In this document: piece by piece, positions 31,218-46,252 of the stretch | How positions within the stretch are numbered: the first letter of the stretch is position 1 | Layout of the letters: the number at the start of each line of letters is the position of its first letter | NCBI GenBank assembly: GCA_030837505.1 | Contig: JAUPKJ010000101.1 | Coordinates: 1 to 46,259 of the forward strand | Length of the DNA: 46,259 nt | Reading direction: 5' to 3' | DNA from: Actinomycetota bacterium | GTDB taxonomy: Bacteria; Actinomycetota; Actinomycetes; Actinomycetales; Kineosporiaceae | Notes under the pieces: generated by a model | The model's input: the letters and a program-made list of their open reading frames with translations, nothing else | Databases searched by the model: none | Told to the model about the DNA's origin: nothing | Position numbers and translations under genes: made by a program

Positions 31218-32951
<1,734 letters not shown>

Positions 32952-33159: not shown

Positions 33160-33918
33160 ATGGTGGCTCGCAGACCCCGGAACTCAGGTCTACGCGGTCC
33201 CCTCGGCGGCCCGGCCCGCCCCGGCCCGGCCCGTCCTCGCACGACCTCTCGCTCCGAATCCGCTGAACCCGACGAACCCGACGAACCCAAGACCCCCCGG
33301 CAGTCCGAGGAGACCCGCGCGGCCCGCGGACGGTCCCCGGCCGTTCCGCACAGTGCAGCGCAACGGCCTCCGCACAGTGCAGCGCAACGGCCCACGACCC
33401 GTTCGGGAAACATCAGACCCACCGCGGCCCCGAGACCGGCCTCCTCCAGGCCGTCGAATCCGAGCAGGACCACCCCCTCGGGGGCCGGCGGCACCGACCC
33501 CGCCCGCGTCCGCCGCCCCCCCGTGATCCGTCCCGTCACCGTCCTGGCAGGGACCCTCGTGGTCCTGAGCCTGCTGCTGGCCCCCTATGTCAAACAGTGG
33601 ATCGCGCAGCGGTCTCAGATCGAGGAGAAGGAAGCAGAGGTCGCGGCCCTCCGGGAAGAGGTCGACGAACTCGCGCAACGCCGTGACCGCTGGAAGGACA
33701 ACCGTTTCGTCGAGACCCAGGCCAGGGAGAGGCTCCACTTCGTCCGGCCCGGGGAGACCGGGTACGTCGCGCTCGACGCCGCGGGCGCCGGCCGGGGCGC
33801 CGCCGTGGACCCCCGGCACCAGGCCGCCCTCACAGCGGGCGCCGAACGGGACGCCGGCGTGCCCTGGTACGGCTCGGTGTGGCAGTCCCTGCGGATCGCC
33901 GGCGACGACCAGCGGTGA
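33160..33918 (+). CDS. FtsB/DivIC-like septum formation initiator
   Basis: A bitopic division protein (252 aa). A long Arg/Pro-rich cytoplasmic tail (1-120), one transmembrane helix (about 123-144, VIRPVTVLAGTLVVLSLLLAPYV), a coiled coil (about 150-178, QIEEKEAEVAALREEVDEL) and the family ending RWKDNRFVETQARERLHFVRPGETGYV are present. It should join the FtsQ/FtsL-type divisome complex. The gene lies downstream of eno as in most actinobacteria. ATG 33160 is preceded by GAGGGAG. The disordered tail contains an exact 24-bp duplication (PHSAAQRP twice). Its stop overlaps the DUF501 start (GTGA). Confidence 0.93.
   Translation: MVARRPRNSGLRGPLGGPARPGPARPRTTSRSESAEPDEPDEPKTPRQSEETRAARGRSPAVPHSAAQRPPHSAAQRPTTRSGNIRPTAAPRPASSRPSNPSRTTPSGAGGTDPARVRRPPVIRPVTVLAGTLVVLSLLLAPYVKQWIAQRSQIEEKEAEVAALREEVDELAQRRDRWKDNRFVETQARERLHFVRPGETGYVALDAAGAGRGAAVDPRHQAALTAGAERDAGVPWYGSVWQSLRIAGDDQR
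33345..33392 (+). repeat. Exact 24-bp tandem duplication in the FtsB-like tail
   Basis: Positions 33345-33368 and 33369-33392 are identical and encode PHSAAQRP twice in the disordered N-terminal tail. The unit contains GCACAGTGCAGCG, similar to the core of repeats at 673-747 and 21632-21751. Confidence 0.9.
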
Positions 33919-34505
33919 CGGAACCCGACCCGTCCCCAACACCCCCGGACGACCGTGCTCCACAATGGCTTTCCGTGACATCGTCCCCGCCACCCCGTGA
34001 CATCACCGGGGAGCCCGCGACACCCGAGGACCTCGCGGCCCTGAGAACACAACTGGGCCGCCCGCCCCGAGGCGTGCTCGGCATCGCCCACCGCTGCCCC
34101 TGCGGAGCGCCCGACGTCGTGACCACCTCCCCCCGGCTCGACGACGGCACGCCCTTCCCGACGCTGTACTACCTCACCTGTCCTCGGGCCACGAGTGCCA
34201 TCGGAACCCTGGAGGCCGACGGTCTCATGCGGGACATGAACCGCCGCCTGGCCGAGGACCCGGACCTCGCCGCCGCCCACGGCGCCGCCCACGAGGACTA
34301 CCTGGCGCGGCGTTCGGCCCTGGGCCTGGACGTCCCGGAGATCGAACGGACCTCCGCGGGGGGCATGCCCGAACGGGTCAAATGCCTGCACGTCCTCGTC
34401 GCCCACGCGCTCGCGGCCGGTCCTGGCACCAACCCGTTGGGGGACGAGGCGCTCGCGGCTCTCGAGCCGTGGGGAACAGCCGGCAGCTGCCTGGACGCCT
34501 CGTGA
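33915..34505 (+). CDS. DUF501 family protein
   Basis: A 196-aa cytoplasmic protein conserved in actinobacteria at this exact position between the FtsB-like gene and ppx. Family landmarks are LGRPPRGVLGIAHRCPCGAPDVVTT, PFPTLYYLTCPRATSAIGTLE, a middle helix MRDMNRRLAEDPDLA, and GGMPERVKCLHVLVAHALAAGPGTNPLGDEAL. The CPCG and C-x-H type residues hint at metal binding. No biochemical function is established. Start GTG 33915 is inside the stop of the previous gene (GTGA), and its own stop overlaps ppx in the same way. Confidence 0.93.
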   Translation: MTEPDPSPTPPDDRAPQWLSVTSSPPPRDITGEPATPEDLAALRTQLGRPPRGVLGIAHRCPCGAPDVVTTSPRLDDGTPFPTLYYLTCPRATSAIGTLEADGLMRDMNRRLAEDPDLAAAHGAAHEDYLARRSALGLDVPEIERTSAGGMPERVKCLHVLVAHALAAGPGTNPLGDEALAALEPWGTAGSCLDAS

Positions 34506-35488
34506 CCGGTCTGCCGACCGCCCCTCCCGTGCGGGTCGCAGCCCTGGACTGCGGCACCCACTCCCTGAGGCTGCTCATAGCGGACGTCGATCCCGCGACC
34601 GGCACCCTGACGGACGTCGAACGCACCATGGAGATCGTGCGCCTGGGGGAGGGCGTCGACACCACGGGCCGTCTGTCGCCGGAGGCCCTCGAACGGACCC
34701 TGACAGTCACGGCCCGGTACGCCGAACGCTGTGGGGATCTGGGGGCCCAGCACGTACGTTTCGTCGCGACCTCCGCCACGCGCGACGCGGAGAACCGGGA
34801 GGAACTCGTGCGCGGGGTGCGGCACCTGCTCGGCGTCGACCCGGAGGTGATCTCCGGGGAGGAGGAGGCTGCGCTGTCCTTCGACGGTGCCACCAGCGAT
34901 TTGATCGCCAGGGGCGAGCTGGGACCGTTCCTCGTGGTGGACCTCGGCGGCGGGTCGACGGAACTGGTGCTCGGGGACGCCGTCCCGCGCGCCGTTTGTT
35001 CGATGCAGGTGGGCTGCGTACGCCTGACCGAACGGCATCTGGCCTCGGACCCACCGACCCCCGAACAGGTCCGGGCAGCCCTCGCCGACGCGGACAGGGC
35101 CCTGGACGCCGCCATGAGGATCGTCCCCTTTCAACAGGCCCGAACCCTGGTGGGCCTGTCGGGCACGGTGACGACGGCCACGGCCCTGGCCCTGGAACTG
35201 CCCCGCTACGACCCTGCGGCCATCCACGGTGCGCACGTGCCCGCAGAGCGGATGCGGCAGATTTGTCGGGACCTGTTGGCCATGACCCGGGCCGACCGGG
35301 TGGCCCTGCCCTGCCTGCACCCCGGACGGGTCGACGTCATAGCAGGCGGTGCCCTGCTGTGGGAACGGATCGTGGACCGGGTCCTGGCCGCCGGCGGTGT
35401 GGACCGCATCGTGACCAGCGAACGGGACATCCTCGACGGCCTGGCGCGGTCCCTGGCCCGTCCCCCGACCAGCCCACCGGCTCGGTGA
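34502..35488 (+). CDS. Ppx/GppA exopolyphosphatase family protein
   Basis: An ASKHA-fold phosphatase (328 aa) of the short actinobacterial Ppx type lacking the C-terminal HD domain of enterobacterial PPX. The phosphate-binding loops ALDCGTHSLRLLI and VVDLGGGSTELVLG are intact, as are ATSATRDAENREE, ISGEEEAALSF and GLSGTVTT. It hydrolyses polyphosphate or acts on pppGpp. Start GTG 34502 overlaps the DUF501 stop (GTGA). It closes the division/DUF501/ppx operon; the tRNA follows after 136 bp. Confidence 0.95.
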   Translation: MTGLPTAPPVRVAALDCGTHSLRLLIADVDPATGTLTDVERTMEIVRLGEGVDTTGRLSPEALERTLTVTARYAERCGDLGAQHVRFVATSATRDAENREELVRGVRHLLGVDPEVISGEEEAALSFDGATSDLIARGELGPFLVVDLGGGSTELVLGDAVPRAVCSMQVGCVRLTERHLASDPPTPEQVRAALADADRALDAAMRIVPFQQARTLVGLSGTVTTATALALELPRYDPAAIHGAHVPAERMRQICRDLLAMTRADRVALPCLHPGRVDVIAGGALLWERIVDRVLAAGGVDRIVTSERDILDGLARSLARPPTSPPAR

Positions 35489-35624: not shown

Positions 35625-35697
35625 GCCCCCGTAGCCCAACGGCAGAGGCAGACGCCTTAAAAGCGTTCGAGTGCGGGTTCGAGTCCCGTCGGGGGTA
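35625..35697 (+). tRNA. tRNA-Leu (anticodon UAA) with a short variable loop
   Basis: A 73-nt cloverleaf. The acceptor is GCCCCCG/CGGGGGT (one G-U pair), with discriminator A73 at 35697. The anticodon stem is GACGC/GCGTT around the loop CTTAAAA, giving anticodon TAA at 35658-35660. The T arm is GCGGG-TTCGAGT-CCCGT. The variable region is only five bases (35668-35672). Genomic CCA is not encoded (CCG follows A73). Leucine tRNAs normally have a long class-II variable arm, so isotype assignment from the anticodon alone carries some doubt. The position after ppx matches other actinobacterial genomes, where a tRNA-Leu is often found. Confidence 0.9.
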
Positions 35698-35806
35698 CCG
35701 ATCGCACCATCGCGCGAACCTCTGCCCTCTCGTCCGACGCGTCGCGGGGACACGAGACGGTCGCCGTCGATCGGCGCGTCTGGTCGACCCGCGGCAGGTG
35801 CAGGAG

Positions 35807-36403
35807 TCACTGCGGCGTTGCGGTTCCCGATGCCCGGCGTCGGACAAGGGGCAGGAAGATGTCGTCGACGATCTCCTCGATGACCTCCGTCGGTACGGCC
35901 TGCAGCGTTGTCAGTACCTCATGCCGGAAGAGGTCGAACGGAAGCGCGACGACCCGCGGAGTCAGCGCCGCCTCCTCGACCTCGCCGCGTGCGACCGCGC
36001 GCTCCAGCACCGTCTCCATCCGGGTTCGGCGCCCCTCCAGCTCCTGTGCGCGTAGTTGGGCGGGGCTCGTCCCCGCCTCGCGGTAGTACGACCCGAGCTG
36101 CACTGCTGCTGCCGCCATCAGATCGGCACTGGTCTGGTTGGCGAGGGTCATGGTCGCGATCAGATCACCGCGCAGCGACCCGGTGTCCGGCGGTTCGAAT
36201 GCGCTGCGTGCGCTCGCATGTGCGACCGCGGCCTTCACCAACTGCGCTCTGTCCGCCCAGCGACGATAGAGCACCGGCGTGCTGGTGTTGGCCCGTTCGG
36301 CCACACCGTCCAGCGTGAAGTCCGCATACCCGCGTTCGGACAGCTCCGCCCACGCGGCGTCCAGCAGCGCCAACTCCAGCGCCTCTCCTCGTCGCCTCCG
36401 CAT
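35807..36403 (-). CDS. TetR family regulator (divergent from ABM gene)
   Basis: A 198-aa repressor. The N-terminal helix-turn-helix is in ALLDAAWAELSERGYADFTL and VAERANTSTPVLYRRWADRAQLV. The C-terminal domain ends DDIFLPLVRRRASG. ATG 36403 has an ideal AGGAGGG site. Two palindromes with TAAGA/TCTTA ends (36413-36434 and 36455-36476) fill the gap to the divergent monooxygenase-like gene and are the likely autoregulatory operators. Confidence 0.94.
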   Translation of the reverse strand: MRRRRGEALELALLDAAWAELSERGYADFTLDGVAERANTSTPVLYRRWADRAQLVKAAVAHASARSAFEPPDTGSLRGDLIATMTLANQTSADLMAAAAVQLGSYYREAGTSPAQLRAQELEGRRTRMETVLERAVARGEVEEAALTPRVVALPFDLFRHEVLTTLQAVPTEVIEEIVDDIFLPLVRRRASGTATPQ

Positions 36404-36412
36404 GTTCCCTCC

Positions 36413-36434
36413 TAAGATGCCCTTGCGCATCTTA
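36413..36434. promoter_or_regulatory. TetR operator, site 1
   Basis: TAAGATGC and GCATCTTA form perfect 8-bp arms with a 6-bp spacer. The site begins 10 bp upstream of the tetR start codon, next to its ribosome site. Confidence 0.8.
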
Positions 36435-36454
36435 CGCGCTCGGTCTACTCTCTT

Positions 36455-36476
36455 TAAGAAGCCATACGGCATCTTA
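36455..36476. promoter_or_regulatory. TetR operator, site 2
   Basis: A second 22-bp palindrome, TAAGAAGCC and GGCATCTTA around CATAC-like bases, with the same ends as site 1. Centre-to-centre distance is 42 bp, four helical turns, so two dimers would bind the same face. It lies 39 bp before the ABM start. Confidence 0.8.
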
Positions 36477-36514
36477 CAGAGGGTGCGCAGAGGGCGTGCC
36501 GGTGGAGGGCGAGA

Positions 36515-36811
36515 ATGAGTGACACGACAGCGGCGGTGACGATCCTGATCGAGATTCACGCGAAGCACGGTCAGGAGCAGGACGCGAGGGACGGGCTGGT
36601 GACCGCGATCACCACCTCGGTCAAGCCAGGGTTCCTCGGCTCGGAGGTCTTCGAGGATCTCAACGACCCCTGTGCGTTCTACTCGGTCCAGAGCTGGGAG
36701 AACGCGGCCGCCTTCCGCGCGCACATGGCCGAGGCCGCCGAAGGCATGGCGGAGGCCACCTCGATGCTCCGCGACGCGCCGAGAACCTCGGTCCTGCGTC
36801 GGATCGCGTAG
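36515..36811 (+). CDS. Antibiotic biosynthesis monooxygenase (ABM) domain protein
   Basis: A 98-aa dimeric alpha+beta barrel protein. VTILIEIHAKHGQEQDARDGL, TSVKPGFLGSEVFEDLNDP and FYSVQSWENAAAFRAHMA are the usual ABM strands and helices. Members act as cofactor-free oxygenases, quinol monooxygenases or haem-degrading proteins; the residues do not decide. ATG 36515 follows GGAGGGCGAGA. It diverges from the TetR gene and is very likely its regulated target. A repeat-extended hairpin follows the gene. Confidence 0.88.
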   Translation: MSDTTAAVTILIEIHAKHGQEQDARDGLVTAITTSVKPGFLGSEVFEDLNDPCAFYSVQSWENAAAFRAHMAEAAEGMAEATSMLRDAPRTSVLRRIA

Positions 36812-36886
36812 GAACCACGCGTGGCGGCCTCGCGGGCTCTGGTTGCACTCCGATCGCATCATGGTGCGAACCGGCCACTCCTTGCT

Positions 36887-43675: not shown

Positions 43676-46252
43676 TCACCCCGGCAGGGAGGTCCTGCTG
43701 GACGGGACGGCGTCGTCCGACCCGGGCGCCGGGTCGCCGGTGGGCTGCCGGTCGGTCCACGACTGTCGGGACTGCAACCAGGCGAGCATCTGCGCGCCGG
43801 GCATGGGCCGCGCCAAGTGGAAGCCCTGGCCGATGTCGCAGCCCAGTTCTGCCAGCAGCTGCTCGGTGTCTGCGTCCTCGATCCCCTCGGCCACGAGCCG
43901 CAGGCCCAGGGAATGGGCCAGGTCCACCGTCGTGCGGATGATCGTGGCCGAGGCCGGGTCCGTCGTCAGGTTCGCGATGAACCCGCGGTCGAGCTTGAGC
44001 TCGTCGACCGACAGCTCCTGCAGGTACGACAGGGACGAGTATCCCGTGCCGTAGTCGTCGATGGAGGCCCCCACCCCGATCCTGCGGATGCGGTCCAGGA
44101 CCGAGCGGGCGCGGCGCGGGTCCACCATGAGCAGGTCCTCGGTCATCTCCACGACCAGGGCCCGCCCGGGCAGGCGGTGCCGTCGCAGAACTGCCTGGAT
44201 CCTCTCGGGCAGGAGGCGGTCCTCGATCTCCGCTGCGGACAGGTTGACCGAAACGGGGATCTCATGTCCCTGGGACCACCAGTCCCGGCAGACCCCCAGC
44301 GACAGATCCAGCACCGTTTCGGCCAGCAGCGACCGCAGCCCCGCCATCTCGATCAGCGGCAGGAAGCTGCCGGGGGGCAACAGCCCCCGCGCGGGGTGTT
44401 CCCATCGGACGAGGGCCTCGACCCCGGTGATCTCGCCCCTCCGGTCCGCCGGGAAGAGCCGGACCTGCGGCTGCAGGTGCATGACGAGGTTGCCGTTGCG
44501 GGAGCGGTCCTCCCCCCGCAGCGCCCCCCGCAGCTCCTCGACCGTCCGCAGCTGCTCCAGGGTGGTGGCCGATCCGGCCTGGCCGTCGAAGGCGACCACG
44601 CCCAGGTGCTCCCTCTTGGCCCGGTACATCGCGATGTCCGCGAACCGCAACAGCTCCGAGTGGCTCTCCATCGGTTCGACGACCGTGGCGACGCCGACGC
44701 TCGCATCCAGGTGCAGCCGGATCCCGCCGGCCACCAGGGGCGGGGCGATCGCGCCCCTGACGGCCCTGCCCAGCATGAGCGCTTCCTCCCCGGACCGGTC
44801 CGGGAGCAGGGCCGCGAATTCGTCCCCGCCCAACCGGGCCAGGTAACAGTTCGAGGGCAGGACGCCCCGGAGCCTCTCCGCGATCTGGATCAGCAGGGTG
44901 TCCCCGCAGCTGTGCCCCAGCGAGTCGTTGATGTCCTTGAACCGGTCGACGTCCAACAGCAGTAACGACACAGGATGTTCCGAACAAGCCCGTTCGACCA
45001 GTTCCCGGCAACGGGCGGACATCGCCCTGCGATTGGGCAGACCCGTCAGCTCGTCCGTGAAAGCCTGACGCCGGGCCTCCTCCAAGGCCCTGACCTCTCT
45101 GTGCCGCACGACCGACAGGAGCAACAGAACCCGAGCCACCGCCCCGACCAGACACAGATCCGCCATGATCGTCGAGACGGGTTCCACGGAACCCACCTGC
45201 CCCGCAGCGAGAACCACGAGCGCCCCCAGCGTGAAGACCCCCGGGAGAACCAGGGACCGCAGGGCGCTTCTCAGAGGGATCACGCCCGGTTGCCCCGGAT
45301 CGGCGAGCGGACGACCGGTGACCTCGGTGGCTGCGGTGGCTGCGGTGACTGCGGGGCCCCGGAAAACGTTCGACACGGCGTGGCCCGCGGTGGGGGAACC
45401 GGCCGTCACCTGTTCCTCGGAATCCTCCCGACGTGCGGAGGCCGGGGAGATCTCTGCCGCTGCCACCATGCACAGGATCCCCAGCAGCCAGCACAGGTCC
45501 AGCAGGCCGCCCTCCTGATACCTGCCCTCGGCGTCCTGCATCAGGTACAACGAGTCGGCCAGCACATAGAGGAACAGCCCCAGCCCCAACAGTCCCATGA
45601 TCCGGTCGGGACGCCGTCCCAGGACGGTGCTGGACGCCACCAGGACGAGGATCAACAGGAGATCACCCACGGGATAGGCGAGATTGATACTCGTCTGGAC
45701 GACAGACCCCTCCGTCAGGGAGATCAAGTCGTCGAGCACGAACGCACTGACGATCGAAGCCGTTCCGCAACCGGCCACCAGGCCGTCCATCCACAGTGCC
45801 GTGTGCAGACGAGGACCCTTGGAACGCAGGAACTGCATCAGGCTGAGGTACACCAGTGGGAACCACAGAAGATAGAGGAAATCGGCAGGGGAGGGGATGG
45901 GGGGATCGTCCAACGGGGCGAGAACCAGCGAAAAGTACACATCCCCCAGGGCAACGCTGAGCGTGCCCAGCCCCAGGAGTCTCCACGCCCAGATCTCCCC
46001 GCCGGCCCGAGCCCGGTTGGCGATCATGAGGACGCCCCCCAGGGCGTACACCGCGACGTAGCAGCCGACATCGAGCCAGAGCACCTGCTCGCGTTCGGAC
46101 CCGCGTATCACGAAGCCCACGGCGAACACCCCGACCAAGGCCACCATCAGAAGATGGAGCCCCCGCCGTGCTGAGTGCCGCCACGAACCCGGAGCCGACA
46201 CCATCCCTCCCTGACGATCGGACGCGCTCGTCCCGACCGGGCACCGCCTCAC
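43676..46252 (-). CDS. Membrane GGDEF-EAL bifunctional cyclic-di-GMP protein
   Basis: An 858-aa signalling protein. About eight to ten membrane helices fill residues 30-385, followed by a GGDEF domain (about 390-560; FTDELTGLPNRRAM, RLGGDEFAALL) and an EAL domain (about 575-835; GVEALVRWEHP, SVNLSA, VEMTEDLL, IDDYGTGYSSLSYL, KLDRGF, VAEGIED, GQGFHLARPM). The active sites of both domains look intact. The GGDEF inhibitory RxxD site is absent (SNCYLARLGGDEF). The start is uncertain: GTG 46252 is used, ATG 46204 has AGGGAGGG directly before it, and the gene may extend past the window edge. It could link cyclic-di-GMP to envelope polysaccharide output. Confidence 0.9.
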   Translation of the reverse strand: MRRCPVGTSASDRQGGMVSAPGSWRHSARRGLHLLMVALVGVFAVGFVIRGSEREQVLWLDVGCYVAVYALGGVLMIANRARAGGEIWAWRLLGLGTLSVALGDVYFSLVLAPLDDPPIPSPADFLYLLWFPLVYLSLMQFLRSKGPRLHTALWMDGLVAGCGTASIVSAFVLDDLISLTEGSVVQTSINLAYPVGDLLLILVLVASSTVLGRRPDRIMGLLGLGLFLYVLADSLYLMQDAEGRYQEGGLLDLCWLLGILCMVAAAEISPASARREDSEEQVTAGSPTAGHAVSNVFRGPAVTAATAATEVTGRPLADPGQPGVIPLRSALRSLVLPGVFTLGALVVLAAGQVGSVEPVSTIMADLCLVGAVARVLLLLSVVRHREVRALEEARRQAFTDELTGLPNRRAMSARCRELVERACSEHPVSLLLLDVDRFKDINDSLGHSCGDTLLIQIAERLRGVLPSNCYLARLGGDEFAALLPDRSGEEALMLGRAVRGAIAPPLVAGGIRLHLDASVGVATVVEPMESHSELLRFADIAMYRAKREHLGVVAFDGQAGSATTLEQLRTVEELRGALRGEDRSRNGNLVMHLQPQVRLFPADRRGEITGVEALVRWEHPARGLLPPGSFLPLIEMAGLRSLLAETVLDLSLGVCRDWWSQGHEIPVSVNLSAAEIEDRLLPERIQAVLRRHRLPGRALVVEMTEDLLMVDPRRARSVLDRIRRIGVGASIDDYGTGYSSLSYLQELSVDELKLDRGFIANLTTDPASATIIRTTVDLAHSLGLRLVAEGIEDADTEQLLAELGCDIGQGFHLARPMPGAQMLAWLQSRQSWTDRQPTGDPAPGSDDAVPSSRTSLPG

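Follow-up and report, generated by a model that had tools for sequence, protein, structure and literature searches.

A class I tRNA with the leucine anticodon UAA in an actinobacterial genome and its distribution in the class Actinomycetes

The window analyzed here, a stretch of 46,259 nucleotides from a draft genome of the family Kineosporiaceae (class Actinomycetes), carries a tRNA gene with the UAA anticodon and a short variable region, and analysis of its fold and relatives confirmed that this tRNA is genuine. With a probability of about 90%, it is an ordinary UUA-reading leucine tRNA of compact class I build, which would be charged by the normal leucyl-tRNA synthetase (LeuRS) through A73 and the elbow. 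Recognition by the bacterial LeuRS would then rely on A73, A15-U48, G18G19/A20a, and contacts between the D-loop and T-loop, the variable arm being unnecessary. The short gene would be an old chromosomal one, often located 3' of ppx and prevailing in much of the class, while Streptomyces-type lineages would instead use a class II (bldA-type) UAA tRNA. The window tRNA is presumably expressed.

Fold and conservation of the window tRNA

ARAGORN identified tRNA-Leu(taa) at window positions 35625-35699 of the forward strand, and the Rfam tRNA model RF00005 matched positions 35625-35697 with 57.7 bits (E 5.4e-10). Together with a positional parse, these results agree with the coordinates, TAA anticodon, and five-base variable region given in the preliminary description (Table 1). 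The discriminator is A73 at position 35697; positions 35698-35699 are CC, and CCA is not encoded 3' of A73. The acceptor stem is formed by positions 1-7 (GCCCCCG) and 66-72 (CGGGGGT) with a G1-U72 wobble, and the T-arm is GCGGG-TTCGAGT-CCCGT. The D-arm contains A14, A15, G18G19, and A20a, and its stem comprises three pairs and a C13-A22 mismatch. U48 of the variable region forms a trans-Levitt pair with A15. The five-nucleotide variable region is shorter than the arm of at least 10 nt that defines class II, and the acceptor and T-stems are arranged as 7/5 rather than as the 8/4 or 9/3 of allo-tRNAs.

Table 1. Features of the window relevant to the short UAA tRNA
Feature	Position	Strand	Basis
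eno	31671-32951	+	Pfam
DivIC-domain ORF	33160-33918	+	Pfam
DUF501 ORF	33879-34505	+	Pfam
Ppx-GppA phosphatase ORF, directly upstream of the tRNA	34382..35488	+	PF02541, 3.9e-58
Class I tRNA-Leu(UAA), positions 1-73	35625..35697	+	ARAGORN, RF00005, positional parse
D-arm GCCC-AACGGCAG-AGGC, leucine-type	35634..35649	+	Coordinates counted from the sequence
Anticodon TAA, loop CTTAAAA	35658..35660	+	ARAGORN, positional parse
Variable region CGAGT, 5 nt	35668..35672	+	Positional parse

Comparison of 163 distinct short UAA tRNAs showed that A73 and all stems were kept despite many compensatory changes, each of the 7+5 acceptor and T-stem pairs being formed in at least 159 of the 163 sequences. This covariation indicates a conserved cloverleaf without a variable arm rather than a chance resemblance. 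Positions 13 and 22 were unpaired in all 163 sequences, as in all four long-armed leucine tRNAs that the source genome encodes.

Probable leucine identity and the meaning of UUA

The source genome is a draft of 4.52 Mb in 434 contigs with a completeness of 95.7%. All of its 47 tRNA matches were read, and the window tRNA was the only one with a UAA anticodon in this 95.7% complete draft, which may still lack a gene. The leucine tRNAs with CAA, CAG, TAG, and GAG anticodons, whose variable regions measure 13-15 nt, belonged to class II. In the search for a second, class II UAA tRNA that had been proposed in the preliminary description, the long-armed UAA pattern had no match in the source draft, among the matches listed. 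At least one bacterial-type LeuRS was encoded (TIGR00396, 830.6 bits). Since C34 pairs with G and the leucine CAA tRNA cannot wobble-read UUA, the window tRNA is, judging from the draft genome, probably the sole UUA decoder of its organism. The codon itself is rare in the six Pfam-supported ORFs of the window, with three occurrences in all. Two are located in a TetR-family ORF (35807-36862) and one in a GGDEF-EAL ORF (43676-46252), the start coordinates being mechanical, and none in eno, divIC, DUF501, and ppx.

According to PMC9976931, leucylation in E. coli needs A73, A15-U48, G18G19, A20a, and D/T-loop contacts, the variable arm being dispensable, and U8:A14 is crucial for the LeuRS of A. 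aeolicus. Five features defined on the E. coli LeuRS were scored: A73, A14, A15-U48, G18G19, and A20a. The window tRNA had all five, as did each of the long leucine tRNAs (4/4) in the source genome, compared with none of its 42 non-leucine tRNAs. Among other loci, the complete set was found in 165 of 173 short leucine tRNAs, 24 of 27 long ones, neither of two leucine tRNAs with a mini-arm, and 1 of 124 non-leucine tRNAs. The anticodons of the short tRNAs with all five determinants were TAA (153), CAA (5), TAG (4), CAG (2), and AAG (1), and the short family as a whole has leucine anticodons exclusively. These two results argue against the possibility that the window tRNA is not leucylated and carries isoleucine, phenylalanine, methionine, or valine, with UUA being recoded or mistranslated. 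This alternative draws on the missing arm of a textbook tRNA-Leu and on overall similarity, since the nearest whole-sequence neighbors of the window tRNA in the source genome are non-leucine tRNAs (identity 0.68 to Arg(ACG) and Asp versus 0.60-0.62 to the leucine tRNAs). In the D-arm and elbow, leucine ties with Cys, Lys, and Arg at 0.74, and A37, A38, and A73 of the window tRNA also occur in other isotypes. Leucine and isoleucine, moreover, are not distinguished by tandem mass spectrometry.

The meaning of the codon was assessed in orthologues of 38 proteins from E. coli, with every UUA masked as X. Seven genomes were given, and the UUA columns came from four genomes of family f87 and not from the source genome; these four are kin, and their columns are not independent. 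One of them (G324) dominates the test with 214 of the 322 TTA codons counted, while no columns were contributed by G290 (two orthologues, no aligned TTA), G014 (no TTA), and G013 (one unaligned TTA). The f87 genomes used carry the same short tRNA, and the places in them that matched the long-arm pattern and were inspected hold no tRNA. In these related short-form genomes, leucine occupied 120 of the 237 aligned columns at masked UUA, and the log-likelihood favored leucine over isoleucine by 134 nats, over methionine by 163, over valine by 205, and over phenylalanine by 284. Each of nine control codons gave back its own amino acid. Thus, related genomes that carry this short tRNA read UUA as leucine, and a non-leucine identity of the window tRNA, as envisaged in the preliminary description, is highly improbable in view of these columns, the five determinants, and the exclusively leucine anticodons.

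The plasmid of Mycolicibacterium alvei (L146) carries a dense array of at least 18 tRNAs at 321-1830 that includes a short Leu(taa); an Arg(acg) in this array has all five leucine determinants by the parse.

Distribution of short and long UAA tRNAs

By DNA search, 37 of the 38 genomes examined in the order had a match. The best-match loci retrieved numbered 30, the window's own among them; 29 fold as TAA and one as CAA. A CAA anticodon was observed in a chromosomal short tRNA of G020 (L036, contig C3), a genome that also has a short UAA tRNA at another locus (L098). A census of the 38 genomes combining a class-neutral pattern with ARAGORN readings found the short UAA tRNA in 33; some of these readings come from match length alone, and G012 was counted from the DNA search and fetched locus only. 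Four genomes have a long-armed UAA tRNA (G015, G026, G030, and G031, the last with a further 29-nt match), and neither form was found in one (G009, 88% complete).

In a sample of 295 genomes of the class, at least 150 matched a strict short-form pattern. Among the matches listed, it was present in 33 of 36 genomes of the window's order (its own included), 31 of 33 of family f22, and 19 of 19 of f85, whereas family f21 had the short pattern in 0 of 34 genomes and the long-arm pattern in all 34. By their likeness to named loci or to features of bldA, f22 appears Mycobacteriaceae-like, f85 Pseudonocardiaceae-like, f21 Streptomyces-like, and f87 Nanopelagicaceae-like. Many other families carry long UAA forms, and about a quarter of the class sample matches neither strict pattern, among the matches listed in both cases. 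Seven genomes that matched neither or were otherwise awkward were re-inspected: G309 has the short form, G194 the long one, G344 and G255 a mini-arm, and G272 a 30-nt match consistent with the short form, while in G252 and G282 no UAA tRNA was identified among the matches listed.

The mini-arm tRNAs of G344 (L339) and G255 (L352), which belong to two families, represent a third UAA form, the variable region comprising about 9-10 nt. They have a different D-arm (GGCCAAC/TGGCGAGCC), and by the parse neither contains all five leucine determinants.

A scan of named species covered at least 119 stretches, and ARAGORN read a short tRNA-Leu(taa) in all of them. Among the matches listed, the carriers were Mycobacterium, Mycolicibacterium, Mycolicibacter, Nocardia, Rhodococcus, Gordonia, Corynebacterium, Dietzia, Microbacterium, Arthrobacter, Cellulomonas, Brachybacterium, Amycolatopsis, Saccharopolyspora, Streptosporangium, Trueperella, and a Nanopelagicaceae MAG. 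Occurrences in other phyla were few among the matches listed. Cyanobacteria, Chloroflexi, and a Pyrinomonadaceae MAG had the short gene within tRNA arrays; in MAGs of Rokuibacteriota, Deltaproteobacteria, and Planctomycetota, where misbinning is possible, the short genes were single or in tandem. The short UAA tRNA therefore appears to be the standard form in much of the class Actinomycetes and not in the whole phylum. The preliminary description had proposed a distinct conserved short tRNA as one of its two alternatives, and had named as refuting evidence that the short form is the standard UUA decoder across the phylum. The former is borne out by conservation across the order and much of the class, by many named genera, and by the covarying cloverleaf; the latter holds for much of Actinomycetes and fails in f21, in several other lineages, and in the four long-armed genomes of the 38 in the order.

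The long-arm pattern alone gives chance matches, many of them in low-GC genomes; for this reason, those in short-form genomes that were used in the argument were checked with ARAGORN. The check comprised 37 places, 4 in the order and 33 in f87, f22, and f85. Four of the 36 order genomes sampled matched the pattern, among the matches listed, and none of the four places (L303-L306) holds a tRNA; the same was true of the 33 places inspected in short-form genomes of the three families. The two UAA forms were found together in no genome of the order, f87, f22, or f85, and five single-contig genomes (G010, G013, G014, G023, and G032) have the short form and no validated long one, among the matches listed. 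Short and long UAA forms are thus nearly mutually exclusive.

This pattern bears on the proposal that a normal long-armed UAA tRNA, missing only from the draft, does the work, the window gene being an additional copy that has decayed or come from a phage. The source assembly is indeed only 95.7% complete and split into 434 contigs, and short leucine tRNAs occur on phages and plasmids, but the five single-contig genomes, the four empty long-pattern places of the order, the location of the window gene within a conserved chromosomal block, and its maintained stems largely refute this proposal, and we regard it as very unlikely.

Genomic setting, origin, and relation to known leucine tRNAs

The gene order in the window is eno-divIC-DUF501-ppx-tRNA. 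Among the matches listed, 23 of the 47 named loci for which 5 kb or more of preceding sequence was available had ppx upstream on the same strand; for 1.5 kb or more, the count was 35 of 97. These fractions make the arrangement frequent but not universal, and ppx synteny was rejected as a universal marker. The ppx-tRNA neighborhood spans genera from Corynebacterium to Trueperella, so the window gene has the appearance of a long-established chromosomal orthologue. In G015, a member of the same order, a class II UAA tRNA is located 42 nt downstream of ppx (L094), which indicates that both architectures can occupy the same place.

This locus is consistent with arm loss, in which a class II leucine tRNA at this position was the direct ancestor of the short form, G015 having the long form where its relatives carry the short one. 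The alternative is a class I tRNA remodeled to leucine identity. Arm loss, to which we give odds slightly better than even, would also fit the leucine-like D-arm of the short form, the existence of an intermediate form with a variable region of 9-10 nt, and a Rokuibacteriota MAG in which Gly-Cys-Leu(UAA, short) follows the same order as E. coli glyW-cysT-leuZ, where leuZ is long. On the other hand, the whole-sequence identity of the window tRNA to the leucine tRNAs of its genome is no higher than that to several class I tRNAs. Long forms are also seldom located at ppx, with a single case among 21 long-form loci inspected over only about 1.5 kb upstream, and this would be equally compatible with replacement or with regain of the arm. 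The origin may thus lie in arm loss, arm regain, or replacement. The whole-sequence nearest neighbor was also considered as a way to prove that the short form descends from a long leucine tRNA, and was rejected because leucine was not singled out.

The window tRNA shares the UAA anticodon, A73, A14, A15-U48, G18G19, A20a, the unpaired positions 13 and 22, and UUA reading with E. coli leuZ (L362) and Streptomyces bldA. These are class II tRNAs, and the variable arm was 11-18 nt in 20 long UAA tRNAs parsed, compared with 5 nt in the window tRNA, which therefore falls outside the bldA definition of a class II tRNA-Leu(UAA). A developmental role of bldA via UUA is described in PMC4255298 and PMC4932002. 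The comparison with bldA drawn in the preliminary description is apt as a contrast and goes no further, as bldA is the class II counterpart.

Two other systems resemble the window tRNA. A mycobacterial cluster tRNA-Leu(TAG) (PMC6582537) is likewise actinobacterial and has a short variable loop, but it is an extra, cluster-borne gene beside a normal long TAG tRNA, whereas the window tRNA is chromosomal and the only UAA tRNA. Animal mitochondrial tRNA-Leu(UUR) (PMC9976931) likewise reads UUR without a long arm, with A73 and A14 as the main determinants, but it is organellar and has its own LeuRS, while the window tRNA is encoded on a bacterial chromosome with an ordinary bacterial LeuRS.

Short leucine tRNAs were also found in Rhodococcus phage Trina (TAA), Thermobifida phage P318 (TAG), Mycobacterium phage Bigswole, a Kovacikia plasmid, and a Chloroflexi MAG array. 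Many of them have the same D-arm core; their variable regions are 4-6 nt, and their anticodons are TAA, TAG, CAA, CAG, and GAG. They are mobile or clustered and often located beside long leucine tRNAs, whereas the window gene is lone and chromosomal. The Chloroflexi array (MAG AL-N1 contig, L278, 6477-7937) contains adjacent short leucine tRNAs with GAG, CAG, TAA, and CAA anticodons. In phage Bigswole (L149, 514-748), a long Leu(cag) adjoins short Leu(gag) and Leu(caa). In phage P318 (L152, 1502-1575), an unannotated short Leu(tag) with the conserved D-arm AGCCCAA..GGCAGAGGC directly precedes the terminase small subunit gene.

Our literature search, mostly of papers open without subscription and largely outside tRNA databases, found no report of a class I tRNA-Leu(UAA) as the standard actinobacterial UUA reader. 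The short UAA tRNA genes themselves are almost certainly listed in tRNA databases. The reviews PMC7609411 and PMC4033280 give it as a rule that tRNA-Leu in bacteria belongs to class II and has a long arm. For M. tuberculosis, PMC11541572, in the part consulted, describes tRNA-Leu-2, 3, and 5 with long variable loops and does not name 1 and 4.

A broader interpretation, which we consider doubtful, is that the leucine tRNAs of actinobacteria fall into two architectural classes: beside the four class II isoacceptors there would be a class I type, on chromosomes mostly for UUA, in which the lack of the arm is functional and whose design mobile elements have adopted for all leucine codons. If this were true, the missing arm would set UUA decoding apart, e.g., in LeuRS kinetics, modification, or escape from arm-gripping enzymes and toxins.

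The UUA reader breaks the rule of long-armed bacterial tRNA-Leu in a large share of the actinobacteria sampled, and it amounts to an experiment of nature, on the scale of genomes, on whether LeuRS manages without the arm, as found in E. coli. It calls for caution in isotype calls based on arm length and stands in contrast to bldA, since the lineages with the developmental UUA switch have the long form. A further implication concerns the range of leucine tRNAs accessible to toxins and enzymes with variable-arm recognition.
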